Shown: positions 1-41,964 of the stretch, in pieces | How the letters are laid out: each line of letters starts with the position of its first letter | Position numbering within the stretch: the stretch's first letter is position 1 | Origin: Mytilus galloprovincialis | Taxonomy: Eukaryota; Mollusca; Bivalvia; Mytilida; Mytilidae | Reading direction: 5' to 3' | DNA length: 64,000 nucleotides | NCBI RefSeq assembly: GCF_965363235.1 | Contig: NC_134840.1 | Coordinates: 97,042,416-97,106,415 of the forward strand | Notes under the pieces: generated by a model | What the model was told of the DNA's origin: nothing | Databases searched by the model: none | What the model saw: the letters and a program-made list of their open reading frames with translations, nothing else | Program-made: the position numbers and the translations under genes

Positions 1-152
1 TTTTAAAAATAACATTTATTCAACCATACCATGATGCTTTATTTGTCTGATGTAATGTCTTTGGTTGTGTATATGTCTCTTTTAATAAAGGGAAACTATT
101 ACCTAAATTATCTTATCTATATCAGTACAATATCTTTCCTTTTATAATATTG

Positions 153-1990
153 AAAAAGAGGGACGAAAGATATTAGAGGGACAGTCAAACTCATAAATCG
201 AAAATAAACTGACAACGCAATGGCTAAAAATGAAAAAGACAAACAGACAAACAATAGTACACATGATACAACATTGAAAACTAAAGAATAAGCAACACGA
301 ACCCCACCAAAAACTAGGGGTGATCTCAGGTGTTCCAGAAGGGTAAGCAGATCCTGCTCAACATGTGACACCTGTCGTGTTGTTCATGTTATAACAAATC
401 TGGTAAATAGTCTAAATCGATAGGTCACATTAATGAAAGAAAAGGGATTTGTAGTTACCACGTAAGGTACATAATCGATATCATCTGTGAAACGGATATT
501 CAATAACGCTCAACCAACTCATGATGGCGTCCGTAAAATTTACGAAGGGATGATTTCAACTTCACCATTTGGAACTCTTGGTTTAATAGCTTCCTTGTGA
601 ACAGCAACCCTCTATCATGAAAATCATGATAGGAAATACAAGCACGGGAATATTGTATCAATTGGGAGATATATACCCCGTATGCAGGTGCTGATGGAAT
701 GTTGCTACTTAGAAATAGAAAGTTCACAATTGGAAAGCTGAAATCATCTCTTTTGTCGTAAAGTTTGTTTTCAGCCGACCCTCATTGTCAATTTCTAAAT
801 GTAAGTCAAGATATGTGGCCGACTTAACTGCATCTGTTGTATCCTTTATCTTAGTTCAATGGGATAGATGCGTTCAACATAGTCACCAAATTTTGATTTT
901 TTTTTAGTGAGAGAACTTCATCTATATAGCGGAAAGTAAAGTTAAAGGATATTGCTAACTTCTTATCTTTCTTCCTAAGAAGTTCGTGTATGAAGTCAGC
1001 CTCATCATAATAAAGAAACAAGTCGGTAGGAAGAGGGGCACAATTGGTTCCCATTGGAATGATGACAGTCTGTTGAAAAACACGTCCTCCGAACGAAACA
1101 AATATGTTGTCAATCAAGAAATCAAACAGCTTGATAATGTCAGTTTCAGAGATTTTTTTGTTTGAATCAGAGTGATCCTTTACAAAGTAGGATTTATCCC
1201 TCCCTAGTCAAGATACTTGTATCTACGTTGGCCATTATTTTTTATGAAAGAAAGCAATACCAACTCCTCTTTCAATTTGTCCTTTTGTTTGAAATGTGGA
1301 ATACTTGTGTAAAGTCTAGAAAAGTCAAATGTTATAATACTATTGCAAGATGAAAGAGAGTCAGATTGTATGTACTCTAAAAGATCTTTTGGTTTTTTTG
1401 GTATCTACATCTGATTCACGCCACCTCTAGAATAGGCAGTTTCACAATAGCTTTGAAGCCCGGCTTTGATTGCTGATAAAATAGATGTTGATAATTTAGA
1501 AAGAGGTTTCGTGGAGCACTTGGAAGACCAAGCAATATACCGTTGTTTGTAAGGACACTTATGTAGTTTAGGTATCAAATACAGTGATGGAAGATCGAGT
1601 TCCTCATCTTTGGTTGAAATTCCAAAGGAACATAGAACAGACCTATGATTATCCAGGATTTCCTCTTTGGTAAGTGTCGTAAGGGTATATGTTGAGTTTC
1701 CAAGTGAATTGTCAATACCTAATTCATTTATCAAGCAGTTAATCTAATGAGTTTTTACATACAAAAACAATGATGTTTGGGGCTTTATCTGCGAGGACAA
1801 CAACATATTTGTCATGTAGGTAGGATAAGTGTTTTGCAACATTTGGGTCTTTAAAGATTGACGTAGCTTGGGTATTGATAGACCCGTTCAGTTTCTTAAT
1901 TCTGATTTGTATCAACAACCTTAAAGCCTTAATCCATACGGAAAGAGTGTCTACGTCTTCCTTCTCGCGCTAAGCCCATTGCCTGGCATA
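153..1990 (-). mobile_element. 5'-truncated Penelope-like element, copy 1
   Basis: On the minus strand the translated blocks follow a PLE reverse transcriptase: VLADKAPNIIVFVCK, then YLIPKLHKCPYKQRYI, then FDFSRLYTSIPH (motif A), GTNCAPLPTDLFLYYDE (motif B), FRYIDEVLSL (motif C, with E where YxDD has its last D), and the thumb-side block PAYGVYISQLIQYSRA. The blocks lie in different frames with stops between them, so the copy is dead. The 3' end is the AAGAGGGACGAAAGATA tail near 153, shared with fragments at 32568 and 46677. No GIY-YIG domain follows the RT; the N-terminal part is missing, so the subfamily is uncertain. Confidence 0.85.
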
Positions 1991-3440
1991 AAAACATATT
2001 GTAAATTTTCCCCAAGTTCAGATAACAGCATTTGTTGTTTACAAAATACTATATGAAGTTTCTAACTTTGCATTGCAGTTTATATAGTTAATACAAATGA
2101 AATGATTCTAATGACAGTCTGCATCTCTTAATTTCGAGGTCTTCGCTTTGTTTTCCTCTGACTAGCAATAAAACACTGCCTTGTCAAAGTGGGCGTCTGT
2201 TTGGATGTGCAGGGTATATAGATTCGCAGATACACCGGTGTGAATTGGAAAATTGAATCATATCTGTCGTGTAAATCGTGTACCAAGATCTTTGTGTTAA
2301 GAATTATAATAACAACTTTTGAGAGTTCCATTGGTGCCCTGTTGCAAGGGTATATTTCACTATTACTATAAATCACTATTTGATATACCATTAAGCTCCA
2401 GTGGTTTTCGAAATTTTCACCCGTTATCTCGTTCGACCCTACTTTATTCTGTAAGGTAAAACAAAAATGTATTGATGATTTCCTGTCGCTCAACATCCTC
2501 ATCTCATACATTCTAACAGAACTTTGTTGTATGTAACATTCCATCTGCCCCTTTCATTTTTGTCAGGAATTTGACAGTTGTTTTCCATTTGATCGATGTT
2601 TTTGAGCATTTGGATTTTCCCCGTTTGTTATGGGTCATGTCTTTTTGCGACCGTGTCTGAATAGGTCACAAATATAGACCACAAATTTCTGCAAATTTTT
2701 GTAAAGGAACAGATTCCATTACTATGACTCGTTTATTCAACTTTCAGTTTAGTCATTTAAAATGCTAGGCAAGACTCGAGCTTTAAGTGATTAAATATAA
2801 CTGTTTCGAGTGGAGAAATAAAACATAGATATAAAGATTCCTTAACTGCAACAGAATTATTCGGTCAATGATCTTGCTGTCACAAAAGAACATTAAACTT
2901 GATAGAGCTCTTTTATAGATACAAACCAACCACAACTGAACCCTTGCCTTAAACGGCTTCACGTTGTCATGACTTTTTACGTATATTTTAGTCATGGGAA
3001 CCGTGATTTTTTTATGCAGTGAGTTGCAGTGGTCTATGAACTAGCTTCCAGTCATCGAAAATACTTATATCGGTGTTTTGGTAAAAAAGATGAATTTCGT
3101 AACGTGCAGATATGTAAATAATTGTAAAACTGCATAATTGAAATTTAAATCATTAAAGTTATATTAAATAAATGCAACAGGAATTATGTTGCATAACGTT
3201 CAGCGGAATAAACATTGAATTATGCATGCTTGTATCGTCTGATGTATGTCTATTTGAGAATGCCCAGTTCTACCATCATTTGTACAAATGTATAACTGTC
3301 TCATTCACATTCATTCCACAAATCCTGCTTGATAAAGGCAACAGTAGTTTACCGCTGTTCGAAATTCATAAAGCAGTTAAAACTTAAAAAAAATATGAAA
3401 CTATTTAATTGTGTAGATTTGGGAATCAGTTTCTACGTAA
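1991..3440. other. No recognisable gene
   Basis: AT-rich sequence upstream of the truncated PLE. An open frame of 138 codons on the minus strand (2128-2544) has no family signature that I recognise and lacks coding character. The same stretch recurs at 10472-11921. Confidence 0.6.
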
Positions 3441-3444
3441 GAAA

Positions 3445-3590
3445 ATGCCTGTACCAAGTCAGGAATGAGACAGCTGACTGTTATCCGTTCGTTTGATGTG
3501 TGTAAGCTTTTTATTTTGGAATTTGATAACACACTTTTTGTTTTGGGTTTTCCCAGCAGTTCGGGTTTTTTTTTTTTTTTAACTTTTTAT
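3445..3590 (+). repeat. Dispersed repeat, GTACCAAGTCAGGAAT family
   Basis: Starts near ATGCCTGTACCAAGTCAGGA, continues with a block like CCGTTCGTTTGATGTGT, and ends with a block like GTATTTTTGTTATTTTACTTT in the better copies. Further copies lie at 3855-3995, 14345-14470, 36290-36395, 36505-36640 and 38290-38435, so the window alone defines a family. No coding content. Confidence 0.75.
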
Positions 3591-3854
3591 GATTCAGATT
3601 ATAACACAATGTTGACTGCTGTACCTCTTTTTTTTGACATTTTTACCATAGCCACTTGTTTCTGAAAAACATACTATATTACTAAATGTGCTTTATTAAG
3701 GTATATAGGAAGACAAGTGCTTGGGTTTTAATATCGGTTGGTTTTGTTCACACACTGTTGTCAATTTAATGGAACATTATTCGACTGTCATAACAGTCAG
3801 AGGTTTAACTAGCTATAAAACCAGTTTTAATCAACCATTTTCTATTAAAGAAAA

Positions 3855-3995
3855 TGCATGTACCACGTCAGGAATATGACAGTTGTTTTCCATTCGTTTG
3901 ATGTGTTAAAGCCTTTGATTTTGTCATTTGATAAAGTACTTTAAGATTATAATTTTCCTTAGTGTTCGGTATTTTTGTTATTTTACTTTTTATAT
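3855..3995 (+). repeat. Dispersed repeat, GTACCAAGTCAGGAAT family
   Basis: Second local copy of the family, beginning GTACCACGTCAGGAATATGA and ending GTATTTTTGTTATTTTAC. Repeated at 12337-12476 in the duplicated segment. Confidence 0.75.
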
Positions 3996-4307
3996 ATCCT
4001 TCTCGCATAGAAATTGCCAGTCATCAATCGAACCACTAAACTTCTATTTTCAAAACAATCAACTATGAGTTTATTTATTACAATATTTAACAACAAATAT
4101 TATTCTAAATATATAAGTGACAACCTTATCTTTTACCCGTTGCTATGTAAAGATATAGGAGATTGACTAATTGATTCTAATTATTAAAGTTCGTAAGAAT
4201 GAAATCATAAACTCTTCTACATTCAAGGCCGTGTGGTCCACTAAAGTGTTAAAGGAAATTATGTCTCAGCTTGAGGTCACCTGTATATTGGTTACCTAAA
4301 CTACAAA

Positions 4308-5319
4308 TCAGATGCTCCGCAGGGCGCAGCTTTATACGACCGCAGAGGACGAATCCTGAACAGTTGGGGCAAGTATGGACACAACATTTAAGCTTGATAC
4401 AGCTCTGAATTTGGATTGTGATTAAATAGTTGACACAACATAGGTATCTGACACAGAATGAATGTGGTCTAAGAACTTAAACTTAAAAATTTTAAATTGG
4501 ACATTTACCTACTATTTTCTAATATCCAAAATCTAAATACATGGTTAAATTCAGCATATCATAGAACCCCAAGAATTCAATTTTTAATGAAATCAAATAA
4601 TGTTCAATTTTAGACCCTTTAGACCTCAATGTGGACCAATTTGATAACAGGGCCCAAATATTAAAAATCTCAATACATGGTTAGATTCAGCATATTGAAG
4701 AACTCCATATATTCAATTTTTGTTGAAATCAAACAAAGTTTAATTTTTGACCCTTTGGACTTTGATGTAGACCAATTTGAAAACGGGACAATACTGTGCA
4801 ATTGAATATTTCTTGCTATTGCGCAAAACTGTGCAATTGAAAATTTCTTGCTATGGCCCAATATTGTGGAATTACATATTTCTTGCTATTGTGCAATACT
4901 GTGCAATTGAAGATTTCTTGCTATTGCGCAATACTGTGCAATTGAAGATTTCTTGCTATTGCGCAATACTGTGCAATTGAAAATTTCTTGCTATTGCACA
5001 ATACTTAATATAATAATTTGGACCCCGATTTGGACCAACTTGCAAACTGGACCCATAATCAAAAATCTAAGTACATGTTTAGATTCAGCATATCAAAGAA
5101 CCCCAAGAATTCAATTTTTGTTAAAATCAAGCATTATTTTGGACCCTTTAGACCTTCATGTAGACCAATTTTAAAACAGGACCAATAGATTTCTATTTAC
5201 TTTTACTAAAGTTAGAGTACGAAAACCAAATGTATTCCGACCACGACGATGAAGAAGACGATGCCAACGTAATACCAATATACGACCCAAAAGTTTTCAA
5301 TTTTTGCAGTCGTATAAAA
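4308..5319 (-). mobile_element. HINE-like element, family A (copy 1)
   Basis: Non-autonomous element read on the minus strand. Its 5' end is TTTATACGACTGCAAAAA. Its 3' part carries the inverse TGCGGTCGTATAAA, then an imperfect hairpin (GCTGCGC/GCGGAGC), then CTGA followed by T. Asymmetric inverted ends plus a 3' hairpin and CTRR-T fit Helitron/Helentron-derived non-autonomous elements. The interior holds ~135-bp tandem units and a 35-bp minisatellite. Other copies lie at 12790, 24915 and 59502. The class assignment is inference from structure; no protein is encoded. Confidence 0.65.
4789..4999. repeat. 35-bp minisatellite, six units
   Basis: Six units of the type CAATACTGTGCAATTGAAGA + TTTCTTGCTATTGCG, expanded inside the family A element. 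The equivalent place in the 59502-61947 copy has only about three degenerate units, so the array changed size within the family. It recurs at 13271-13481. Confidence 0.85.
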
Positions 5320-5537
5320 CGTCAATGAAAATCATTTAACCACAGCGACAAGTGATTAGTAGAATTGATGTTATTCAACAAAATTGTCATTTGAAAAATC
5401 GATTACAGATTGTGTTTTTGCTGCAATTTATATGTTAACCTACTTCTGTAAGAAAAAAAAATATGTATTTGAACTATTAATTTTCTATTGGACTGACCGT
5501 TTCTCAAATAAAGTCCCAACAGGTTAGAGGGAGTGTA

Positions 5538-5637
5538 NNNNNNNNNNNNNNNNNNNNNNNNNNNNNNNNNNNNNNNNNNNNNNNNNNNNNNNNNNNNNNN
5601 NNNNNNNNNNNNNNNNNNNNNNNNNNNNNNNNNNNNN
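5538..5637. other. Assembly gap (100 N)
   Basis: Exactly 100 undetermined bases, a conventional unknown-length scaffold gap. It separates two duplicates of the same locus. Confidence 0.99.
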
Positions 5638-8116
5638 ACAAGGCAGTGTTTTATTGCTAGTCAGAGGAAAACAAAGCGAAGACCTCGAAATTAAGAGATG
5701 CAGACTGTCATTAGAATCATTTCATTTGTATTAACTATATAAACTGCAATGCAAAGTTAGAAACTTCATATAGTATTTTGTAAACAACAAATGCTGTTAT
5801 CTGAACTTGGGGAAAATTTACAATATGTTTTTATGCCAGGCAATGGGCTTAGCGCGAGAAGGAAGACGTAGACACTCTTTCCGTATGGATTAAGGCTTTA
5901 AGGTTGTTGATACAAATCAGAATTAAGAAACTGAACGGGTCTATCAATACCCAAGCTACGTCAATCTTTAAAGACCCAAATGTTGCAAAACACTTATCCT
6001 ACCTACATGACAAATATGTTGTTGTCCTCGCAGATAAAGCCCCAAACATCATTGTTTTTGTATGTAAAAACTCATTAGATTAACTGCTTGATAAATGAAT
6101 TAGGTATTGACAATTCACTTGGAAACTCAACATATACCCTTACGACACTTACCAAAGAGGAAATCCTGGATAATCATAGGTCTGTTCTATGTTCCTTTGG
6201 AATTTCAACCAAAGATGAGGAACTCGATCTTCCATCACTGTATTTGATACCTAAACTACATAAGTGTCCTTACAAACAACGGTATATTGCTTGGTCTTCC
6301 AAGTGCTCCACGAAACCTCTTTCTAAATTATCAACATCTATTTTATCAGCAATCAAAGCCGGGCTTCAAAGCTATTGTGAAACTGCCTATTCTAGAGGTG
6401 GCGTGAATCAGATGTAGATACCAAAAAAACCAAAAGATCTTTTAGAGTACATACAATCTGACTCTCTTTCATCTTGCAATAGTATTATAACATTTGACTT
6501 TTCTAGACTTTACACAAGTATTCCACATTTCAAACAAAAGGACAAATTGAAAGAGGAGTTGGTATTGCTTTCTTTCATAAAAAATAATGGCCAACGTAGA
6601 TACAAGTATCTTGACTAGGGAGGGATAAATCCTACTTTGTAAAGGATCACTCTGATTCAAACAAAAAAATCTCTGAAACTGACATTATCAAGCTGTTTGA
6701 TTTCTTGATTGACAACATATTTGTTTCGTTCGGAGGACGTGTTTTTCAACAGACTGTCATCATTCCAATGGGAACCAATTGTGCCCCTCTTCCTACCGAC
6801 TTGTTTCTTTATTATGATGAGGCTGACTTCATACACGAACTTCTTAGGAAGAAAGATAAGAAGTTAGCAATATCCTTTAACTTTACTTTCCGCTATATAG
6901 ATGAAGTTCTCTCACTAAAAAAAAATCAAAATTTGGTGACTATGTTGAACGCATCTATCCCATTGAACTAAGATAAAGGATACAACAGATGCAGTTAAGT
7001 CGGCCACATATCTTGACTTACATTTAGAAATTGACAATGAGGGTCGGCTGAAAACAAACTTTACGACAAAAGAGATGATTTCAGCTTTCCAATTGTGAAC
7101 TTTCTATTTCTAAGTAGCAACATTCCATCAGCACCTGCATACGGGGTATATATCTCCCAATTGATACAATATTCCCGTGCTTGTATTTCCTATCATGATT
7201 TTCATGATAGAGGGTTGCTGTTCACAAGGAAGCTATTAAACCAAGAGTTCCAAATGGTGAAGTTGAAATCATCCCTTCGTAAATTTTACGGACGCCATCA
7301 TGAGTTGGTTGAGCGTTATTGAATATCCGTTTCACAGATGATATCGATTATGTACCTTACGTGGTAACTACAAATCCCTTTTCTTTCATTAATGTGACCT
7401 ATCGATTTAGACTATTTACCAGATTTGTTATAACATGAACAACACGACAGGTGTCACATGTTGAGCAGGATCTGCTTACCCTTCTGGAACACCTGAGATC
7501 ACCCCTAGTTTTTGGTGGGGTTCGTGTTGCTTATTCTTTAGTTTTCAATGTTGTATCATGTGTACTATTGTTTGTCTGTTTGTCTTTTTCATTTTTAGCC
7601 ATTGCGTTGTCAGTTTATTTTCGATTTATGAGTTTGACTGTCCCTCTAATATCTTTCGTCCCTCTTTTTCAATATTATAAAAGGAAAGATATTGTACTGA
7701 TATAGATAAGATAATTTAGGTAATAGTTTCCCTTTATTAAAAGAGACATATACACAACCAAAGACATTACATCAGACAAATAAAGCATCATGGTATGGTT
7801 GAATAAATGTTATTTTTAAAAGACTTGGAATTGACCATACAAATGCTATAAATGCTCCATTTTATGAATCCCTATACACATTTAAGAAGTAAATAAAAAC
7901 CAATCTATCAATATTGTATGTTAGCTGTTGGTAACAACAACTACATCAAATGTCAGACAGTAAACGGAAAACCATTTATATAAAATAAATTTTGGTAATG
8001 AAAAATATCTAACATTGATCAAGAATTTTGAGCTTAGAAGAAGTTTTACAAAGTTACTTGTATCTTCTCATAAGTTACAAATAGAACAAGGTAGATATCA
8101 GCATATTCCCCGAATT
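5638..8116 (+). repeat. Left arm of giant palindrome
   Basis: Each base x pairs with 16303 - x in the right arm (8187-10665). The arm begins at the gap, so its true length is unknown. I saw no mismatches where I compared it. It contains the PLE in plus orientation and part of a LINE. Confidence 0.9.
5832..7669 (+). mobile_element. 5'-truncated Penelope-like element, copy 2 (inverted)
   Basis: Reverse-complement image of the PLE at 8634-10471, with the same broken RT blocks in the same order. Because it shares every lesion, it is a duplicate of one insertion and not a separate transposition. Confidence 0.85.
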
Positions 8117-8186
8117 CAGAGAATATGTTATAAATATTCTTCCAATACTGCCGAAGATGAGGCTCATTTTCTGTTTAATTGCAACA
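7997..8186 (+). mobile_element. LINE fragment, C-terminal zinc-binding region
   Basis: The frame beginning at 8015 reads MIKNFELRRSFTKLLVSSHK, then LQIEQGRYQHIPRIQRIC, then TAEDEAHFLFNCNKF. This is the C-terminal region found after the reverse transcriptase in many animal LINEs (usually C-x2-C ... E-D-E-x-H-F-L-x-x-C). The first cysteine pair is degraded (CYKYS). The frame stops making sense at 8187, where the palindrome turns back on itself. Confidence 0.7.
8117..8186. other. Palindrome spacer
   Basis: These 70 bp between the two arms are single copy. They carry the zinc-finger part of the LINE fragment, so the turn-around lies inside a formerly continuous LINE sequence. Confidence 0.85.
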
Positions 8187-10665
8187 AATTCGGGGAATAT
8201 GCTGATATCTACCTTGTTCTATTTGTAACTTATGAGAAGATACAAGTAACTTTGTAAAACTTCTTCTAAGCTCAAAATTCTTGATCAATGTTAGATATTT
8301 TTCATTACCAAAATTTATTTTATATAAATGGTTTTCCGTTTACTGTCTGACATTTGATGTAGTTGTTGTTACCAACAGCTAACATACAATATTGATAGAT
8401 TGGTTTTTATTTACTTCTTAAATGTGTATAGGGATTCATAAAATGGAGCATTTATAGCATTTGTATGGTCAATTCCAAGTCTTTTAAAAATAACATTTAT
8501 TCAACCATACCATGATGCTTTATTTGTCTGATGTAATGTCTTTGGTTGTGTATATGTCTCTTTTAATAAAGGGAAACTATTACCTAAATTATCTTATCTA
8601 TATCAGTACAATATCTTTCCTTTTATAATATTGAAAAAGAGGGACGAAAGATATTAGAGGGACAGTCAAACTCATAAATCGAAAATAAACTGACAACGCA
8701 ATGGCTAAAAATGAAAAAGACAAACAGACAAACAATAGTACACATGATACAACATTGAAAACTAAAGAATAAGCAACACGAACCCCACCAAAAACTAGGG
8801 GTGATCTCAGGTGTTCCAGAAGGGTAAGCAGATCCTGCTCAACATGTGACACCTGTCGTGTTGTTCATGTTATAACAAATCTGGTAAATAGTCTAAATCG
8901 ATAGGTCACATTAATGAAAGAAAAGGGATTTGTAGTTACCACGTAAGGTACATAATCGATATCATCTGTGAAACGGATATTCAATAACGCTCAACCAACT
9001 CATGATGGCGTCCGTAAAATTTACGAAGGGATGATTTCAACTTCACCATTTGGAACTCTTGGTTTAATAGCTTCCTTGTGAACAGCAACCCTCTATCATG
9101 AAAATCATGATAGGAAATACAAGCACGGGAATATTGTATCAATTGGGAGATATATACCCCGTATGCAGGTGCTGATGGAATGTTGCTACTTAGAAATAGA
9201 AAGTTCACAATTGGAAAGCTGAAATCATCTCTTTTGTCGTAAAGTTTGTTTTCAGCCGACCCTCATTGTCAATTTCTAAATGTAAGTCAAGATATGTGGC
9301 CGACTTAACTGCATCTGTTGTATCCTTTATCTTAGTTCAATGGGATAGATGCGTTCAACATAGTCACCAAATTTTGATTTTTTTTTAGTGAGAGAACTTC
9401 ATCTATATAGCGGAAAGTAAAGTTAAAGGATATTGCTAACTTCTTATCTTTCTTCCTAAGAAGTTCGTGTATGAAGTCAGCCTCATCATAATAAAGAAAC
9501 AAGTCGGTAGGAAGAGGGGCACAATTGGTTCCCATTGGAATGATGACAGTCTGTTGAAAAACACGTCCTCCGAACGAAACAAATATGTTGTCAATCAAGA
9601 AATCAAACAGCTTGATAATGTCAGTTTCAGAGATTTTTTTGTTTGAATCAGAGTGATCCTTTACAAAGTAGGATTTATCCCTCCCTAGTCAAGATACTTG
9701 TATCTACGTTGGCCATTATTTTTTATGAAAGAAAGCAATACCAACTCCTCTTTCAATTTGTCCTTTTGTTTGAAATGTGGAATACTTGTGTAAAGTCTAG
9801 AAAAGTCAAATGTTATAATACTATTGCAAGATGAAAGAGAGTCAGATTGTATGTACTCTAAAAGATCTTTTGGTTTTTTTGGTATCTACATCTGATTCAC
9901 GCCACCTCTAGAATAGGCAGTTTCACAATAGCTTTGAAGCCCGGCTTTGATTGCTGATAAAATAGATGTTGATAATTTAGAAAGAGGTTTCGTGGAGCAC
10001 TTGGAAGACCAAGCAATATACCGTTGTTTGTAAGGACACTTATGTAGTTTAGGTATCAAATACAGTGATGGAAGATCGAGTTCCTCATCTTTGGTTGAAA
10101 TTCCAAAGGAACATAGAACAGACCTATGATTATCCAGGATTTCCTCTTTGGTAAGTGTCGTAAGGGTATATGTTGAGTTTCCAAGTGAATTGTCAATACC
10201 TAATTCATTTATCAAGCAGTTAATCTAATGAGTTTTTACATACAAAAACAATGATGTTTGGGGCTTTATCTGCGAGGACAACAACATATTTGTCATGTAG
10301 GTAGGATAAGTGTTTTGCAACATTTGGGTCTTTAAAGATTGACGTAGCTTGGGTATTGATAGACCCGTTCAGTTTCTTAATTCTGATTTGTATCAACAAC
10401 CTTAAAGCCTTAATCCATACGGAAAGAGTGTCTACGTCTTCCTTCTCGCGCTAAGCCCATTGCCTGGCATAAAAACATATTGTAAATTTTCCCCAAGTTC
10501 AGATAACAGCATTTGTTGTTTACAAAATACTATATGAAGTTTCTAACTTTGCATTGCAGTTTATATAGTTAATACAAATGAAATGATTCTAATGACAGTC
10601 TGCATCTCTTAATTTCGAGGTCTTCGCTTTGTTTTCCTCTGACTAGCAATAAAACACTGCCTTGT
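8187..10665 (-). repeat. Right arm of giant palindrome
   Basis: Reverse complement of 5638-8116. Its outer end is set only by the gap: beyond 10665 the sequence continues as the direct duplicate of 1-5537. Confidence 0.9.
8634..10471 (-). mobile_element. 5'-truncated Penelope-like element, copy 3
   Basis: Same broken PLE as 153-1990, offset 8481. RT motif B (GTNCAP) and motif C (FRYIDE) are readable on the minus strand near 9510-9560 and 9400. Confidence 0.85.
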
Positions 10666-11921
10666 CAAAGTGGGCGTCTGTTTGGATGTGCAGGGTATAT
10701 AGATTCGCAGATACACCGGTGTGAATTGGAAAATTGAATCATATCTGTCGTGTAAATCGTGTACCAAGATCTTTGTGTTAAGAATTATAATAACAACTTT
10801 TGAGAGTTCCATTGGTGCCCTGTTGCAAGGGTATATTTCACTATTACTATAAATCACTATTTGATATACCATTAAGCTCCAGTGGTTTTCGAAATTTTCA
10901 CCCGTTATCTCGTTCGACCCTACTTTATTCTGTAAGGTAAAACAAAAATGTATTGATGATTTCCTGTCGCTCAACATCCTCATCTCATACATTCTAACAG
11001 AACTTTGTTGTATGTAACATTCCATCTGCCCCTTTCATTTTTGTCAGGAATTTGACAGTTGTTTTCCATTTGATCGATGTTTTTGAGCATTTGGATTTTC
11101 CCCGTTTGTTATGGGTCATGTCTTTTTGCGACCGTGTCTGAATAGGTCACAAATATAGACCACAAATTTCTGCAAATTTTTGTAAAGGAACAGATTCCAT
11201 TACTATGACTCGTTTATTCAACTTTCAGTTTAGTCATTTAAAATGCTAGGCAAGACTCGAGCTTTAAGTGATTAAATATAACTGTTTCGAGTGGAGAAAT
11301 AAAACATAGATATAAAGATTCCTTAACTGCAACAGAATTATTCGGTCAATGATCTTGCTGTCACAAAAGAACATTAAACTTGATAGAGCTCTTTTATAGA
11401 TACAAACCAACCACAACTGAACCCTTGCCTTAAACGGCTTCACGTTGTCATGACTTTTTACGTATATTTTAGTCATGGGAACCGTGATTTTTTTATGCAG
11501 TGAGTTGCAGTGGTCTATGAACTAGCTTCCAGTCATCGAAAATACTTATATCGGTGTTTTGGTAAAAAAGATGAATTTCGTAACGTGCAGATATGTAAAT
11601 AATTGTAAAACTGCATAATTGAAATTTAAATCATTAAAGTTATATTAAATAAATGCAACAGGAATTATGTTGCATAACGTTCAGCGGAATAAACATTGAA
11701 TTATGCATGCTTGTATCGTCTGATGTATGTCTATTTGAGAATGCCCAGTTCTACCATCATTTGTACAAATGTATAACTGTCTCATTCACATTCATTCCAC
11801 AAATCCTGCTTGATAAAGGCAACAGTAGTTTACCGCTGTTCGAAATTCATAAAGCAGTTAAAACTTAAAAAAAATATGAAACTATTTAATTGTGTAGATT
11901 TGGGAATCAGTTTCTACGTAA
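10472..11921. other. No recognisable gene
   Basis: Duplicate of 1991-3440. AT-rich, with no protein family or RNA gene recognised. Confidence 0.6.
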
Positions 11922-11925
11922 GAAA

Positions 11926-12476
11926 ATGCCTGTACCAAGTCAGGAATGAGACAGCTGACTGTTATCCGTTCGTTTGATGTGTGTAAGCTTTTTATTTTGG
12001 AATTTGATAACACACTTTTTGTTTTGGGTTTTCCCAGCAGTTCGGGTTTTTTTTTTTTTTTTAACTTTTTATGATTCAGATTATAACACAATGTTGACTG
12101 CTGTACCTCTTTTTTTTGACATTTTTACCATAGCCACTTGTTTCTGAAAAACATACTATATTACTAAATGTGCTTTATTAAGGTATATAGGAAGACAAGT
12201 GCTTGGGTTTTAATATCGGTTGGTTTTGTTCACACACTGTTGTCAATTTAATGGAACATTATTCGACTGTCATAACAGTCAGAGGTTTAACTAGCTATAA
12301 AACCAGTTTTAATCAACCATTTTCTATTAAAGAAAATGCATGTACCACGTCAGGAATATGACAGTTGTTTTCCATTCGTTTGATGTGTTAAAGCCTTTGA
12401 TTTTGTCATTTGATAAAGTACTTTAAGATTATAATTTTCCTTAGTGTTCGGTATTTTTGTTATTTTACTTTTTATA
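11926..12476 (+). repeat. Two copies of the GTACCAAGTCAGGAAT repeat
   Basis: Duplicates of the copies at 3445-3590 and 3855-3995, here at 11926-12073 and 12337-12476. The sequence between them is AT-rich and featureless. Confidence 0.75.
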
Positions 12477-12789
12477 TATCCTTCTCGCATAGAAATTGCC
12501 AGTCATCAATCGAACCACTAAACTTCTATTTTCAAAACAATCAACTATGAGTTTATTTATTACAATATTTAACAACAAATATTATTCTAAATATATAAGT
12601 GACAACCTTATCTTTTACCCGTTGCTATGTAAAGATATAGGAGATTGACTAATTGATTCTAATTATTAAAGTTCGTAAGAATGAAATCATAAACTCTTCT
12701 ACATTCAAGGCCGTGTGGTCCACTAAAGTGTTAAAGGAAATTATGTCTCAGCTTGAGGTCACCTGTATATTGGTTACCTAAACTACAAA

Positions 12790-13801
12790 TCAGATGCTCC
12801 GCAGGGCGCAGCTTTATACGACCGCAGAGGACGAATCCTGAACAGTTGGGGCAAGTATGGACACAACATTTAAGCTTGATACAGCTCTGAATTTGGATTG
12901 TGATTAAATAGTTGACACAACATAGGTATCTGACACAGAATGAATGTGGTCTAAGAACTTAAACTTAAAAATTTTAAATTGGACATTTACCTACTATTTT
13001 CTAATATCCAAAATCTAAATACATGGTTAAATTCAGCATATCATAGAACCCCAAGAATTCAATTTTTAATGAAATCAAATAATGTTCAATTTTAGACCCT
13101 TTAGACCTCAATGTGGACCAATTTGATAACAGGGCCCAAATATTAAAAATCTCAATACATGGTTAGATTCAGCATATTGAAGAACTCCATATATTCAATT
13201 TTTGTTGAAATCAAACAAAGTTTAATTTTTGACCCTTTGGACTTTGATGTAGACCAATTTGAAAACGGGACAATACTGTGCAATTGAATATTTCTTGCTA
13301 TTGCGCAAAACTGTGCAATTGAAAATTTCTTGCTATGGCCCAATATTGTGGAATTACATATTTCTTGCTATTGTGCAATACTGTGCAATTGAAGATTTCT
13401 TGCTATTGCGCAATACTGTGCAATTGAAGATTTCTTGCTATTGCGCAATACTGTGCAATTGAAAATTTCTTGCTATTGCACAATACTTAATATAATAATT
13501 TGGACCCCGATTTGGACCAACTTGCAAACTGGACCCATAATCAAAAATCTAAGTACATGTTTAGATTCAGCATATCAAAGAACCCCAAGAATTCAATTTT
13601 TGTTAAAATCAAGCATTATTTTGGACCCTTTAGACCTTCATGTAGACCAATTTTAAAACAGGACCAATAGATTTCTATTTACTTTTACTAAAGTTAGAGT
13701 ACGAAAACCAAATGTATTCCGACCACGACGATGAAGAAGACGATGCCAACGTAATACCAATATACGACCCAAAAGTTTTCAATTTTTGCAGTCGTATAAA
13801 A
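12790..13801 (-). mobile_element. HINE-like element, family A (copy 2)
   Basis: Duplicate of 4308-5319, including the six-unit 35-bp minisatellite at 13271-13481. Confidence 0.65.
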
Positions 13802-14018
13802 CGTCAATGAAAATCATTTAACCACAGCGACAAGTGATTAGTAGAATTGATGTTATTCAACAAAATTGTCATTTGAAAAATCGATTACAGATTGTGTTTT
13901 GCTGCAATTTATATGTTAACCTACTTCTGTAAGAAAAAAAAATATGTATTTGAACTATTAATTTTCTATTGGACTGACCGTTTCTCAAATAAAGTCCCAA
14001 CAGGTTAGAGGGAGTGTA

Positions 14019-19683: not shown

Positions 19684-19855
19684 AGGTAGACGTAAAATAA
19701 TTTTGTCGTTCAAAGTATGACGGGATACATAAATACAGACTCACGTAAAATAGATATCACGAAAAACAGACTTAACAGTAAAAGTAATAATAATAAATAA
19801 AATAATTGTGTGTTTCAAAGTATGACGGGATACATAAGTACAGAGTCACGTCAAA
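19684..19855. repeat. ~105-bp tandem repeat, left part
   Basis: Units marked by TTCAAAGTATGACGGGATAC start at 19709 and 19814. The array resumes after the Naiad insertion at 23921-24060 (next unit at 23985). Removing the element restores the ~105-bp spacing. Confidence 0.8.
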
Positions 19856-19889
19856 TAAAATTGAGAAAGGAAATGGTGAATATGTCAAA
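19853..19889. repeat. 37-bp direct repeat, left end of Naiad
   Basis: Identical to 23884-23920. It contains ATTGAGAAAGGAAATGGTGA. On the element's strand it is the 3' terminus, repeated in front of the 5' end, as in the partial tandem (pseudo-LTR) arrangement known for PLEs. It includes a short target duplication (GTCAAA) at the junctions. Confidence 0.85.
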
Positions 19890-20496
19890 GCGACAACCAC
19901 CCGACCATAGAGCAAACAACAGCCGAAGGCAACCAATGGGTCTTCAATGTAGCGAGAATTCCCGCACCCGTAGGTGTCCTTCAGCTGGCCCCTAAAATAT
20001 GCATAATAGTACAGTGATAATGGACGTCATACTAAACTCCGAATTATACACAAGAAACTAAAATTTAAAATCATACAAGACTAACAAAGGCCAGAGGCTC
20101 CTGACTTGGGACAGGCGCAAAATTGCGGCGGGGTTAAACATGTTTATGAGATCTCAACCCTCCCCCTATACCTCTAGCCAATGTAGAAAAGTAAAAGAAT
20201 AACAATACGCACATTAAAATTCAGTTCAAGAGAAGTCCGAGTCTGATGTCAAAAGATGTAACAAAAGAAAATAAATAAAATGACAATAATACATAAATAA
20301 CAACAGACTACTAGCAGTTAACTGACATGCCAGCTCCAGACCTCAATTAAACTGATTGAAAGATTATGTCTTCATCATATGAATATCAGGTACAATCCCT
20401 CCCGTTAGGGGTTTAGTATCATACTATCATAAAAATATGAGAAGAACATAACCCGTGTCATGCCAACAACTGTTATTTTTTAAGAAATAAATGTGT

Positions 20497-23400
20497 TTAG
20501 TTCCGATGCAAAGACCCTATCAGTGAATCAATGTTAAAGCCAAAATATGCAATCTTTAATGACCTGACAACAGTATCGTAACTATATCCCCTTTTAATAA
20601 GTCTATTTAAAGGTTTTGTTAGTTTCTGAGGAGAATACTGACATTTTTGTGCTTTATAAAGAATATTTCCATAAAATTTTGGATGTGAAATACCTGAACG
20701 TATAAGATGTCTGCATGTTGAGTTATATTTACGAATTATTTCCTTATACCGGTGATAAAATTTAGTAAATGTTTTGACCAGTTTGTGATATCGAAAACCC
20801 TGGTGTAATAATTTTTCAGTAATACATAAATGTCTCTCGCTAAAATCTAATACATTGTTACATACACGAGCGAATCGTACAAGTTGAGATATATAAACAC
20901 CATAAGATGGTGACAAGGGAACGTCACCATCTAAAAATGGATAATTAACAATAGGAAATGAAAAATCATCTCTTTTATCATAAATTTTTGTATTAAGCTT
21001 CCCGTTTATGATACAGATATCAAGATCGAGGAAAGGGCAGTGGTCATTGTTATCATTAGCTTTATTTTAAGTAAGTTCTACAGGATAAATTTCTTTAGTA
21101 TACATACTGAAGTCGTCGTTATTTAGAGCCAATATATCATCCAAATATCTAAAAGTATTGTTAAATTTTTGTATCAAATGTTGTTTTGATGGGTCTTTGC
21201 TAATTTTAGTCATAAATTGTAACTCATAACAATACAAAAACAGGTCCGCAATAAGTGGTGCACAGTTAGTCCCCATTGGAATTCCAATAACTTGACGATA
21301 TACGGAATCTCCAAAGCGAACAAAAATGTTATCAAGTAAAAATTCAAGTGCATAAATAGTATCAAAGCATGTCCAATTGACATAGTTCTTTTGTTTATTG
21401 CTACTAAAAAATGATCTAAAAGAGTTTGAACATATGTACTCGCATTCCGACTTTTTAAATGCCCAGTTATTTAGGGATGTGAATTTTTTCTTAATAAGAA
21501 TATGAGGCAAAGTGGTATATAGGGTAGAAAAATCAAAACTTTGAACATATTCAAAATCACCAATATATGCATGCAATTTATCAAGTACTTTCAACGAGTT
21601 TTTGACACTCCAAAAGTAACTAATTCCACTATTTTCAAAGGCCTTATTTGAACAATTTATTATCAGGTTTTTTATTGTACCAAGTGTACTAGTAAGTAAA
21701 ACAGACAATTTAGTAGTTGAACAATGGCTGGAAGATGAAATAAATCTATATTTGTAAGGTTTTTTGTGCAGTTTCGGAAGCCAGTACATAGTTGGGACTT
21801 TTATTGTGTTTGGTTCTGCTTGTAAAGAAGTAGCTATAAGTTTATGTTTGTTACAGATGTCGTTTTCTGAAAATGAAGTCAGTTGGAATGTTGGTGAATT
21901 CGTGATTTCCTTTTGCAGAACCTCTATATAAAATTTACGTCAAACAATAATGATATTATTAGCAGCTTTATCAGCCGGGACAAAAACAAATTCCTTGGCT
22001 AGTTCTGTTAGTTTATTTTTGATACGCGAAATAGGGTTTTTATAGTTTTTGTTGAGGGTAAAATGTTCTTTAAAATGTTGTATTCGAATATCAACTATCT
22101 TCATTACTGAATTAAAAAAAGAGTCCAAAGATTTTTTGTCAGCTTTTTCCCGTTTTACCCATTTCAAACAGTAGGCGCGGAGTGAGTCGTTGATGATATT
22201 ACGACACTCATTCCAGTTAATAGTTGACGGGGGACGATATTTAGGTCCTTTACTGAGGAATGATTTTAACTCTCGGTCGCGAACGATGTTAAGGTCTCCT
22301 GTTATAACATGGGAAATTGGTCCATAAGTGTATTCTGAATTACTGCAATTACACGACATAGGTGTATTTTCAGTGATATTTACATCTTTACACAATTGGC
22401 TATAATTAAACACATATTTTCGGGTAGATTTCTTGTAAATATAACAAATGAGAGGGAGTTCAGTATTATCAAAATATCCAGGAATTTGGTCTTTAACAGA
22501 ATGGTCGTTAAAAATACCGGCAATATTTACAAAATCAAAACCTTTATTGACATACTTTATTTTAATAAAATGTTTTTTATGATCTTCAGGGCGATCAATT
22601 TTTGGAAACAGTTTAGAATAACAATATGCCATTATAATTTGGACAATTTCATACTTAGGACTGTAATATGAAATTGTGTTGCAATCCTCTAAAATTTTAT
22701 TTAATTTATTTATAGGTAAAGAACAAAGCTTGGTTAACAGATAATGTCTGCCGTTGTTTTTTGAAATGGAAATTAGGTCCGAAATATTTGTATGGTTGGT
22801 CCGAAATTTTCTTTGATTGCGATTTTTTCTGCGTCCATGAGAACGATTTTTACGAACAGTTTTAGAAACTATATCCAAAATGTTAACAGAATCGGTTCTT
22901 GATATATTGCCAATTCCCATGATATTATCATTAAGACCGAGAGGGTAGACTGTCTGTAATTTTTTAATCCAATTTAATTCATTTATTTTTCGTGATCGTA
23001 CAAACTTGGAATGAGATTCACCAGGCTGCTTATTTACTACTTCTAAAGGTTGAACTGTTAAATATTTAATAGGATGACTGTGCTTCTTAAGATGTTGATA
23101 AATGATACTTTTGAATTTATTGGGTCTTTTAAAACGATACAGGTGTTCTTGCGTGCGTTTAGATAAATATCGCCCAGTTTCACCTACGTACTGAATACCG
23201 CATCCCGGTTTGTTTCATGTGAGTAAATAAATAATACTGTTTGTTTTTCAAGTAATATCAGTTTCAAAATTTAGAGAAAATGTGCGACCATTAAATGTGG
23301 ACCTTACTGTATTGTTGGTGGAAAGACGGGGACACGTAAGTCATTTTTTGGCATGACACTTATCGATAGAAGGGTAACCACGATTTTTATTGTTAAAAAC

Positions 23401-23505
23401 GTTAGCTATGGTAGTATTTTTAGATAAGCGATTCTGAAGATTGAGACGTGTAGATACCCTTTGAACGAGTTTAGTATTTAATATTTTTCCATTTCTAAGC
23501 TTCAT
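20497..23505 (-). CDS. Naiad PLE polyprotein: GIY-YIG endonuclease + reverse transcriptase, probable selenoprotein
   Basis: One frame of 1002 codons from ATG at 23505 (context MKLRNGK). Codons ~45-112 hold a Cys-rich block leading into GIY-YIG (GIQYVGETGR at 103-112; then KRTQEH, and NELNWI with the likely catalytic Glu). A linker carries CNCSNSEYT...HVITGDL. The RT has DFSTLYT at 658 (motif A), GTNCAPLIADLFLY at 745 (B) and YLDD at 787-790 (C), then the thumb with GVYISQL. TGA codons sit at 23343-23341, 23250-23248, 23217-23215 and 21942-21940, in contexts KCHAKK-x-LTC, DIT-x-KTN, YLLT-x-NKPGC and NIIIV-x-RKF. In PLEs as I know them each of these is a Cys. A TAA at 21069-21067 (VELT-stop-NKAND) is not explained by recoding and suggests this copy is damaged or holds an assembly error. 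The start could also lie at 23616. Confidence 0.8.
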
Positions 23506-23883
23506 ATTTGTTTTTTGGTATGTAGATTTATTAAAGGAGCAAAGACTGGCGTCCAGAATATGAACCATCACACAGAAGATTAAATTGTGTAAAAAGGATA
23601 AAACTGTTCGGCTCAAGACGTCAAATGCTTATTGTCATAAGTTACCCGACAAATTTAACAAAAGATAGGGTATATCAAGGTAGCGACTGACGTCTGACTA
23701 AATTGATGAATGGGGCTGAATATTAAAATACTACTTTTTGATAGATATTCCTAAAGTAATGAACTTAGAGAAGTTCTCGCTCGGACACACACTCCATAAT
23801 CTAGTATAATATAAGAGCATAAACCTTAAGCACGGGGAGGCACTCTACTGTCTCCACACGGCACTAAAGACAAACTCTGTAAA

Positions 23884-23920
23884 AAATAAAATTGAGAAAG
23901 GAAATGGTGAATATGTCAAA
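23884..23920. repeat. 37-bp direct repeat, right end of Naiad
   Basis: Second copy of 19853-19889, followed by the resumed host array (TGTATATCAC...). It marks the element's 5' end on the minus strand. Confidence 0.85.
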
Positions 23921-24060
23921 TGTATATCACAAAAAAACAGACTTAACAGTAAAAGTAGTATTAATAAATAAAATAATTTTGTCGTTCAAAGTATGACGGG
24001 ATACATAAGCACAGAGTCACGTCAAATGGATATCTAAAAAAACAGACTTAACAGTAAAAA
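23921..24060. repeat. ~105-bp tandem repeat, right part
   Basis: Continuation of the array at 19684-19855. The unit at 23985 reads TTCAAAGTATGACGGGATAC and ends in the shared AACAGACTTAACAGTAAAA. Confidence 0.8.
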
Positions 24061-26639: not shown

Positions 26640-28250
26640 GCGTATCTTTTCTTTTCTTTTTGGCTAGTTATTATATGTTATTTGATCCAACTTATTGTGT
26701 ACTGTACATAGTTACAGGATATCTAATTTTGATCTTTATCAATTACACTTGCATTTAAATGCAATAGATATTTAAAATGATTATAGATTCTTTATCTACA
26801 TACTTTTTAGTAACTTTTTTTTTATCTCATTGTTTGTATTGTATTATGCAAATTATTGATGTTGTAATGTTTATGCCTTTTGGGGTCCATAATTGGAAAT
26901 ACAAATTATTTACCTAAACTGAAAGTTGAATGTTAAACATTAATAAGGGTATTACATTTAAAAAATGATTAAGTGAAAAAGTACTTTTTCTCTTTTGATT
27001 AGAAGGTAGGACGACATTCTAGTGCATACATAATCCGAAAGCTCCCAACTTCTGATTATTTCCAATACGGCTTCTATTTTTAGCAATATAATTACCTTAT
27101 AAAAACCCCGTTATATGATTACGTGTTATAGATCAAATCAACCGTTAAGATCAGGTAAGTTGACATAATGGAGCTGGCTTCCACAATATCATGATTTTGA
27201 AACAAATGTATATAGGTGAGACAAAATCTGTATAAATGTTGATCTCTTAAATAATGAAATATCCATTTAATTATTCTTCAAATTTAAACGATTGATTGCC
27301 GTTTGCTTAAAGTGAAGATTTTTTTTTGTGTACATGTATACGTATCCAAGTTATCTCAAAACAATTTCATTGTAAGGATTTAGAAAATAGAAAAATTATA
27401 CTAGATAGACAATAACGTTTTCTATGTCTACGAAGAATAGAAAGCATCTACATATTCATCGATTGCATGAAAACATGTTTGAAACTTCAGTTCAAACGAC
27501 TCCGCTGTGGTCAAGTGGGAATAAATTGGATAATCTTTATATATAGATGTAAGTACTACAATATTTTTTCACCATGCTAAGATAAAGTTATATGAACGTT
27601 TTACAAGTATTCATAGCCCTAGACCTTAGATGTTCAATGCTGTACCTTAAACCTTCAGCGTTTAATTTAACATCCTTATACCTTCAGCTCTGTACTTTTT
27701 AATCTCAGTATTGAACTTTTTATTTCTAGTGCTCGTTTTTACATTTTGAACACAGTTCTGTTTATGTTCAGCATTAGAGTTTACAACTTTCACGAACGAC
27801 ACATTATCTCCAGCGCAAAACAATGTAAATTCAGAATCTTTTATGTGCTTGGGATCAAGAAGGCATATACAAAACAAACGAATTTTGATTTTAATGATTT
27901 AAAATATTTTCTTGTTGTTCTCATAAGTACTATATTATTGATCTTTATTTTATTTATATTGCTATTATGGACACTTATGGTCCTACATCCAGTCAATACT
28001 TTTTTTTGCGTTATTGTTGGTCATTTGTTTCTCAGACAATAGTTAACGTATTTTACTGAACCCGTTGGAGTTCAGTATTTTTGTGATTTTACTTTTTGTA
28101 TGTATGCTGATTAGGTGTTAGTCTGAAAAACATAGCTTACCAATACGTTGGTGTGGCTTTGAACTTGCATTTTGTGAATGACTTTTTATATGGTCATTTT
28201 TTTTATAAATTTCCTGTTACAAAACTTTGATTTTTTCGACAAACTAAGGA
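26640..28250. other. Gene-free stretch
   Basis: AT-rich. A 98-codon open frame at 27746-28042 is hydrophobic but has no start context or family signature and is not called. A repeat tail (GTTGGAGTTCAGTATTTTTG) lies at about 28060-28100. Confidence 0.5.
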
Positions 28251-28254
28251 TTTT

Positions 28255-28455
28255 CTTATCCTAGAATAGATTACCTTAGCGTATTTGGCACAACTTTTCG
28301 GAATTTTGGGTCCTCAAAGCTCTTCAACTTTGTACTTGTTTGGCTTTATTATTATTTTGATCTGAGCGTCACTGACGAGTCTTGTGTAGACGAAACGCGC
28401 GTCTGGCGTATTAAATTATAATCCTAGTACCATTGATAACTATTTTTGTGCGGTT
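28255..28455 (+). repeat. Bivalve dispersed repeat, CGAAACGCGCGTCTGGCGTA family
   Basis: Carries GCACAACTTTTCGGAATTTT, GAGCGTCACTGACGAGTCTT and CGAAACGCGCGTCTGGCGTA, ending near TGATAACTATT. Other copies lie at 39602-39690 plus 41738-41830 (split by an insertion) and 41965-42165. SINE or MITE status is not clear from sequence alone. Confidence 0.75.
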
Positions 28456-39690: not shown

Positions 39691-41737
39691 CTAGAGGCTC
39701 TCAAGAGCCTGTATCGCTCACCTGATTCTACTTGGGTTTTTGAAATCATATAAAAAATATAAAATTTGGCTAAAAGTGACAACACAACCTCATTTATAAG
39801 GAAAGGAACATGTTTAATTTCATTCAAAAGTCCCCCACTGGCGGCCATCTTGGATGACGGATCGGCTACAAAGTAACAACACTTGGTCAGCACCACATTA
39901 GGAACATTCATGCCATGTTTGATTTCATTCCATTCAGTGGTTCTCTAAAAGAAGTCATTTGTATGCATTTCCCATAGGGTCCTATGTTAAACTAAGTCCC
40001 ACGCTGGCGGCCATCTTGGATGATGGATCGGCTACAAAGTAACAACACTTGGTCAGCACCACATAAGGAACATTCATGCCATGTTTGGTTTCATTCCATT
40101 CAGTGGTTCACTAGAAGAAGTGATTTGTATGCATTTCCATTAGGGTCCTATGTTAAACTAAGTCCCCCGCTGGTGGCCATCTTGGATAATGGATCAGCTA
40201 CAAAGTAACAACACTTGGTCAGCACCCCATAAGGAACATTCATGCTATGTTTGGTTTTATTCCATTCAGTGGTTCTCTAGAAGAAGTCATTTGTATGCAT
40301 TTCCCATAGGGTCCTATGTTAAACTAAGTCCCCTGCTGGCGGCCATCTTGGATGATGGATCGGCTACAAAGTAACAACACTTGGTCAGCACCCCATAAGG
40401 AAAATTCATGCCATGTTTGGTTTTATTCCATTCAGTGGTTCTCTAAAAGAAGTCATTTGTATGCATTTCCCATATGGTCCTATGTTAAACTAAGTCCCCG
40501 GCTGGTGGTCATCTTTGATGATGGATCAGCAACAAAGTAACAACACTTGGTCAGCACCTCAAAAGGAACATTCATGCCATGTTTGGTTTCATTCCATTTA
40601 GTGGTTCTCTAAAAGAAGTCATTTGTATGCATTTCCCTTAGGGTCCTATGTTAAACTAAGTCCCCCGCTGACGGCCATCTTGGATGATGGATCGGCTACA
40701 AAGTAACAACACTTGGTCAGCACCCCATAAGGAACATTCATGCTATGTTTGGTTTTATTCCATTCATTGGTTCTCTAAAAGAAGTCATTTGTATGCATTT
40801 CCCATAGGGTCCTATGTTAAACTAAGTCCCCTGCTGGGGCCATCTTTGATGATGGATCGGCTACAAAGTAACAACACTTGGTCAGCACCCCATAAGGAAC
40901 ATTCATGACATGTTTGGTTTCATTCCATTCAGTGGTTCACTAGAAGAAGTCATTTGTATGCATTTCCAATAGGGTCCTATGTTAAACTAAGTCCCCGCTG
41001 GCGGCCATCTTGGATAATGGATCGGCTACAAAGTAACAACAATTGGTCAGCACTCCATAAGGAACATTCATGCAATGTTTGGTTTCATTCCATTCAGTGG
41101 TTCTCTAGAAGAAGTCATTTGTATGCATTTACCATAGGGTCCTATGTTAAACTAAGTCCCCTGCTGGCGGCCATCTTGGATGATGGATCGGCTACAAAGT
41201 AACAACACTTGGTCAGCACCCCATAAGGATAATTCATGCTATGTTTGGTTTTATTCCATTCAGTGGTTCTCTAAAAGAAGTCATTTGTATGCATTTCCCA
41301 TAGGGTCCTATGTTAAACTAAGTCCCCGGCTGGCGGCCATCTTGGATGATGGATCGGCAACAAAGTAACAACACTTGGTCAGCACCTCATAAGGAACATT
41401 CATGCCATGTTTGGTTTTATTCCATTCAGTGGTTCTCTAAAAGAAGTCATTTATATGCATTTCCCATAGCGTCCTATGTTAAACTAAGTCCCCCGCTGGC
41501 GGCCATCTTGGATGATGGATCGGCTACAAAGTAACAACACTTGGTCAGCACCTCATAAGGAACATTCATGCCATGTTTGGTTCCATTCCATTCAGTGGTT
41601 CTCTAGAAGAAGTTCAAAATGTAAATTGTTAACGACGACGACGACGGACGACGCCGGACGACGCCGGACGACGACGACGGACGACGGACGCCAAGTGGTG
41701 AGAAAAGCTCACTTGGCCCTTCGGGCCAGGTGAGCTA
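39691..41737 (-). mobile_element. HINE-like element, family B, 11-unit copy
   Basis: Left edge CTAG (39691-39694) plus the 16-bp hairpin AGGCTCTCAAGAGCCT; right edge GGCCAGGTGAGCTAAAA. Between them are about 11 tandem units of ~166 bp, each with GGATCGGCTACAAAGTAACA, TCATGCCATGTTTGGTTTCA and CATTTCCCATAGGGTCCTAT. On the plus strand each unit opens a 62-codon frame, which is a by-product of the repeat. The same element at 35600-35964 has one unit. Confidence 0.8.
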
Positions 41738-41830
41738 AAAAGTTAAAAAGCCGAACAAGTATCAAGTTGAAGGGCATTTAGGACCCAAAATTCCAAAAAG
41801 TTGTGCCAAATACGGCTAAGGTAATCTATG
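41738..41830 (-). repeat. Dispersed CGCGCGTCTGGCG repeat, second half
   Basis: Continues 39602-39690 after the inserted family B element: AAAAAGTTGTGCCAAATACG is the reverse of the 28290 region of the intact copy. Confidence 0.75.
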
Positions 41831-41855
41831 CCCGGGATAGAAAAAAAACTTAGTG

Positions 41856-41960
41856 TTTCTCGCTGCATTGAAGACCCATTAGTGGCTTTCGGCTGTTGTC
41901 TGCTCTATGATCGGGTTGTTGTCTCTTTGATACATTCCCAATTTCCATTTTCCCTTTTAT
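41856..41960 (+). mobile_element. Solo Naiad-type PLE 3' tail
   Basis: TCGCTGCATTGAAGACCCAT, CTTTCGGCTGTTGTCTGCTC and TTGATACATTCCCAATTTCC match, in this orientation, the 3' end of the Naiad at 19856. A severely truncated insertion. Confidence 0.75.
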
Positions 41961-41964
41961 TTTG

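Follow-up and report, generated by a model that had tools for sequence, protein, structure and literature searches.

PLEs of the Naiad type combine several hallmarks: an N-terminal GIY-YIG endonuclease, a CxC linker motif, a PLE/telomerase-like RT with an insertion-in-fingers domain, pseudo-LTRs, and no canonical hammerhead ribozyme. In 2021, Craig, Yushenova, Rodriguez and Arkhipova (MBE 38:5005; cited in PMC11167929) reportedly described Naiads of spiders and clams that had independently evolved into selenoproteins with several selenocysteines (Sec). To our knowledge, selenoproteins encoded by mobile elements are rare, and routine annotation takes in-frame TGA codons of this kind for decay. 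In this work, a 64-kb stretch of Mytilus galloprovincialis DNA (64,000 nucleotides, hereafter the window) was analyzed by comparison with related loci and with models of protein domains and structured RNAs. As a result, we report one copy of a Naiad-type PLE whose family very probably encodes a selenoprotein, since Cys stands opposite every in-frame TGA in the relatives and a SECIS_1 match lies 3' of the ORF.

The ORF of the element occupies 20497..23505 on the minus strand and comprises 1002 codons plus a terminal TAA, with four TGA codons and one TAA in frame. The TGA codons are codons 55 (23341..23343), 86 (23248..23250), 97 (23215..23217) and 522 (21940..21942), with first bases at 23343, 23250, 23217 and 21942 when the minus-strand frame is read; their contexts are KCHAKK-U-LTC, DIT-U-KTN, YLLT-U-NKPGC and, at the start of the RT, NIIIV-U-RKF. 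Both the positions and the contexts agree with those quoted in the first-pass annotation, which however left out the TAA at codon 813 (21067..21069, minus strand). This codon lies inside the C-terminal part of the RT and is followed by 189 more codons in frame before the terminal TAA, while in codons 1-812 TGA, present four times, is the only stop triplet. If TGA counts as a sense codon, translation from the ATG at 23505 could thus proceed through 812 codons and not through 1002. The real start is uncertain, since the frame is also open 5' of this ATG and an earlier in-frame ATG occurs at 23568. Over 20497-23505, the two other minus-strand frames contain 54 and 124 stops, versus 6 in the frame of the ORF (terminator included), and the ORF seems to have been kept open by selection until recent times. 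Relatives L003 and L001 have Ile opposite the TAA, as plain damage would give and unlike the Cys found opposite the TGAs. The TAA is probably an inactivating mutation of this copy, which, because of it, has probably lost activity and is probably dead.

Three parts of the predicted protein could be recognized: a GIY-YIG endonuclease region at the N-terminus (22927..23361, minus strand, codons 49-193), identified by homology to loci L010 and L017; the CxC motif SCNC (22345..22356, minus strand, codons 384-387) between the endonuclease and the RT; and an RT core (21130..21987, minus strand) with the motifs ADKAANN, FDFSTLYT, IPMGTNCAPL and YLDD. The RT motifs start at codon 507, i.e., C-terminal to the endonuclease region, and are homologous to those of other PLE fragments. 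L010 and L017 exceed the Pfam GIY-YIG cut-off; the window protein itself has no Pfam GIY-YIG match, and Pfam RVT_1 gives it sub-threshold matches only. The R, H, E and N residues of the endonuclease are invariant across the three aligned sequences, that of the window frame included. Judged from the sequence, the order of the domains and the motifs fit the description of Naiads; membership rests on this order and these motifs. Searches of PDB sequences with the 812-codon stretch gave no matches at E<=1, and with the N-terminal part two matches at chance level (E ~2). The structure predicted for the endonuclease from a three-sequence input has a mean pLDDT of 44.8 and was not used as evidence.

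The ends of the element are marked by a 37-bp direct repeat, with identical copies at 19853..19889 on the 3' side and 23884..23920 on the 5' side (minus strand), which would delimit an element of 4,068 bp and is perhaps a short remnant of a pseudo-LTR. Further out, a unit of ~113 bp at 23915..24027 recurs with 90% identity at 19745..19856 (minus strand, 5' and 3' sides, respectively), and this flanking unit may be a tandem repeat that served as the insertion target. No hammerhead ribozyme was found within the element; the only match listed in the window, a type I hammerhead at 28366-28409, lies outside it and scores 34.5, just above the gathering score of 34. The segment around it, 28353-28442, shares 87% identity with 39693-39604, which lies close to a tandem array at 39828-41613 with a period of ~166 bp (from self-match spacing) that matches repeats in two of three Bathymodiolus symbiont assemblies at 68-90%. 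The last 106 bp of the Naiad 3' region (19853-19958) recur in the other orientation at 41857-41962 with 85% identity, adjoining the repeat 41747-41854. A second copy of this repeat, 28243-28347, sits beside the hammerhead at 28366; the segment 41857-41962 is perhaps part of a non-autonomous element carrying the tail of the Naiad.

The relatives used for comparison came from a second scan of prokaryotic genome contigs, which yielded five PLE loci from assemblies of Bathymodiolus symbionts or of Candidatus Thioglobus, and from follow-up searches of three of these assemblies; these PLE fragments are presumably host DNA. Wider searches led only to the same three assemblies: among 83 genomes at the family level three gave hits, among 83 at the order level one did (endonuclease alignment), and a sample of 369 genomes of the class likewise gave one. 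The protein of the ORF had no close relative among viral contigs, prokaryotic genome contigs, phages or plasmids, and the viral contigs, scanned with four small alignments, gave no relatives either. When the DNA of the 3' region was compared with the three symbiont assemblies, no match was obtained, an empty result that is uninformative for this kind of search. One further candidate, L018/L026 (G002:C162; E 1.4e-4 and 2.5e-7), was rejected as a PLE relative: its ORF resembles a bacterial GIY-YIG protein and has no Cys just ahead of the GIY-YIG core, the place corresponding to codon 97.

A second, older PLE is present in the window and was also used for comparison; its DNA is 67-81% identical to the symbiont-assembly fragments (first 60 rows among the matches listed). 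Together with the matches of the tandem array to symbiont-assembly repeats, this similarity in itself indicates a bivalve, perhaps a mussel, as the source. It occurs three times with identical translated matches because of the repeats within 1-14018: the segment 1-5537 is repeated at 8482-14018 (99.96%), and 5638-10665 forms a near-perfect inverted repeat. This arrangement reflects either recent duplication, inverted as well as direct, or faulty assembly. At the center of the inverted repeat, at 8075-8228, Rfam mir-283 is matched on each strand with scores of 37.4 and 37.3 bits (cut-off, 50); these sub-threshold matches are probably artefacts created by the palindrome itself.

In every comparison counted, the residue opposite a TGA codon is Cys (8/8): three of three sites in L010, three of three in L017, one of one in L006 and one of one in the older PLE of the window. 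Codon 55 is aligned with TGT in L010 and TGC in L017, codon 86 with TGC in both, codon 97 with TGT in both, and codon 522 with TGT in both L006 and the older PLE. For this count, the repeated copies of the older PLE were taken once, and the weak GIY-YIG locus L018/L026 was left out. The endonuclease relatives L010 and L017 both belong to assembly G002 and the RT relative L006 to G001, so that these three loci represent two Bathymodiolus-symbiont assemblies; the set of relatives is small and divergent (29-44% identity), and it consists of other PLEs, not of reference Naiad or Neptune proteins. Within that range, two earlier claims were borne out, namely that each TGA site is a Cys in PLE/GIY-YIG proteins and that the older PLE keeps a real Cys at the fourth site. 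The endonuclease alignment has 137 columns common to the window protein, L010 and L017, and at seven of them both relatives carry Cys; at these seven columns the window element has TGA three times, Cys three times (codons 50, 58 and 102) and Thr once (codon 82).

A SECIS element had been suspected on the minus strand 3' of the ORF, and Rfam indeed gives a SECIS_1 match there (20376..20439, minus, i.e., coding strand), although below the gathering score (32.5 versus 35 bits). The match begins 57 nt past the ORF stop, covers the full length of the model and retains the AUGA, apical AAA and UGA cores in register in the alignment. Its E-value is 0.0011 in a 5-kb search and 0.015 over the 64-kb window, both calculated over all 4227 Rfam families; it is the sole SECIS match among those listed for the window (Rfam, E<=5). 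Given its composition, this stretch has an ordinary folding energy (z -0.82, with 34 of 200 shuffled sequences equally stable), and a crude core-plus-stem scan of the window produced 13 hits (overlapping hits counted separately), with the SECIS_1 stretch second by energy; the argument from the SECIS is built on the combined sequence-and-structure score and on position, not on stability. Rfam searches at E<=1 in 9 of 18 related loci gave no matches, a blank that weighs little because those loci are PLE fragments.

The locus therefore has features of a eukaryotic selenoprotein gene, in-frame TGA codons opposite Cys in four homologous sequences and a SECIS 3' of the ORF, and the original reading of the element as a selenoprotein Naiad PLE finds support in the GIY-YIG/CxC/RT order, the Cys alignment and the SECIS match. 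Three other explanations were weighed against it. The one that survives best supposes that the family once encoded a selenoprotein but that Sec has since gone out of use in the lineage leading to this copy, where TGAs and SECIS are leftovers. The TAA in this copy and the SECIS score under the gathering threshold are what such a relic might display, but apart from the TAA the frame is unbroken over 1002 codons and the AUGA, AAA and UGA cores have all been kept, and we consider this history improbable. Still less probable is an ordinary PLE pseudogene in which the TGAs are random nonsense mutations and the SECIS match arose by chance. Damage of this sort is seen in the older PLE of the window, which is full of stops, and the Naiad copy carries its own TAA; however, four of its five internal stops are TGA codons on Cys columns. 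Under random placement, the chance that three random codons all fall in the 7 Cys columns out of 137 is 8e-5, and addition of the RT site (3 Cys among the 115 columns of L006) brings it to ~2e-6. Given five random nonsense mutations in the ORF, the probability that at least four are Cys-to-TGA changes is 3e-5 to 8e-5 across three transition weights. These estimates agree with the earlier argument that random decay would be unlikely to hit four Cys positions. In addition, the homology to L003 runs through the RT in a single frame, and the SECIS match sits at the expected place. Decoding of TGA by another route, either a variant nuclear code or editing, is scarcely credible, as nothing beyond the open frame itself was found to favor it, the relatives have Cys at all four sites, a Sec-type 3' signal is present, and A-to-I editing of UGA yields Trp, not Cys.

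If the element belongs, as we favor, to a selenoprotein Naiad family, its working may be proposed as follows. A single ORF would encode, from N- to C-terminus, a GIY-YIG endonuclease, a linker with the CxC motif and a PLE (telomerase-related) RT. In intact members of the family, which presumably exist, the SECIS hairpin just 3' of the ORF would recruit the selenocysteine (SECIS-binding) machinery of the host, and the UGA codons 55, 86, 97 and 522 would be decoded as Sec replacing Cys at three sites of the endonuclease and one site of the RT. The Sec of codon 97 would be close to Cys 102, immediately before the GIY-YIG core; that of codon 522 would stand at the start of the RT, past ADKAANN. 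The resulting protein is expected to contain the inserted Sec, to be functional and to support target-primed insertion, and the Cys positions of the endonuclease may bind zinc. PMC8230778 gives 46 Sec for the selenoprotein P of oyster and 132 for that of one bivalve species, which makes the decoding of several Sec codons per mRNA plausible in such hosts. A broader proposal, that a mussel-lineage Naiad family carries Sec in both the RT and the endonuclease, with its transposition tied to the selenium supply of the host and enabled by the ability of bivalves to decode Sec processively, is offered tentatively and seems rather doubtful at present.

With respect to what the locus adds, a single raw copy was recognizable from Cys-aligned TGAs combined with a SECIS, and the four sites together with the 3' signal provide handles on the reasons for selenium use by a retrotransposon. 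The surprise is limited, because selenoprotein Naiads are said to be already in print. A literature search by title gave no paper on selenoprotein PLEs among the matches listed, and the main text of PMC10294476 names Penelope once and does not name Naiad. At least five genome papers, including one on the spider Uloborus, contain the words penelope, selenocysteine and retroelement one or two times apiece.

Three known systems can be set beside the window element. Selenoprotein P is a plasma selenium protein whose sequence is not known to be related to the element. The likeness between the two lies in the several UGA-Sec codons per mRNA, described for molluscs in PMC8230778 and predicted for the window element. 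Canonical PLEs (Penelope/Poseidon, Neptune) share with it the type of RT and a GIY-YIG domain with its Cys positions, but their GIY-YIG domain is C-terminal, whereas the endonuclease of the window element is N-terminal, and they carry Cys at the sites where the element has its four TGAs. L010 and L017 seemingly have the canonical order: their reading frames stop shortly past the endonuclease, and they thus resemble PLEs with a C-terminal endonuclease rather than Naiads. The selenoprotein Naiads said to occur in spiders and clams are alike in their N-terminal GIY-YIG, CxC linker, C-terminal RT and several selenocysteines; this kind of selenoprotein PLE has probably been reported already, and the window element is probably a further member of it.
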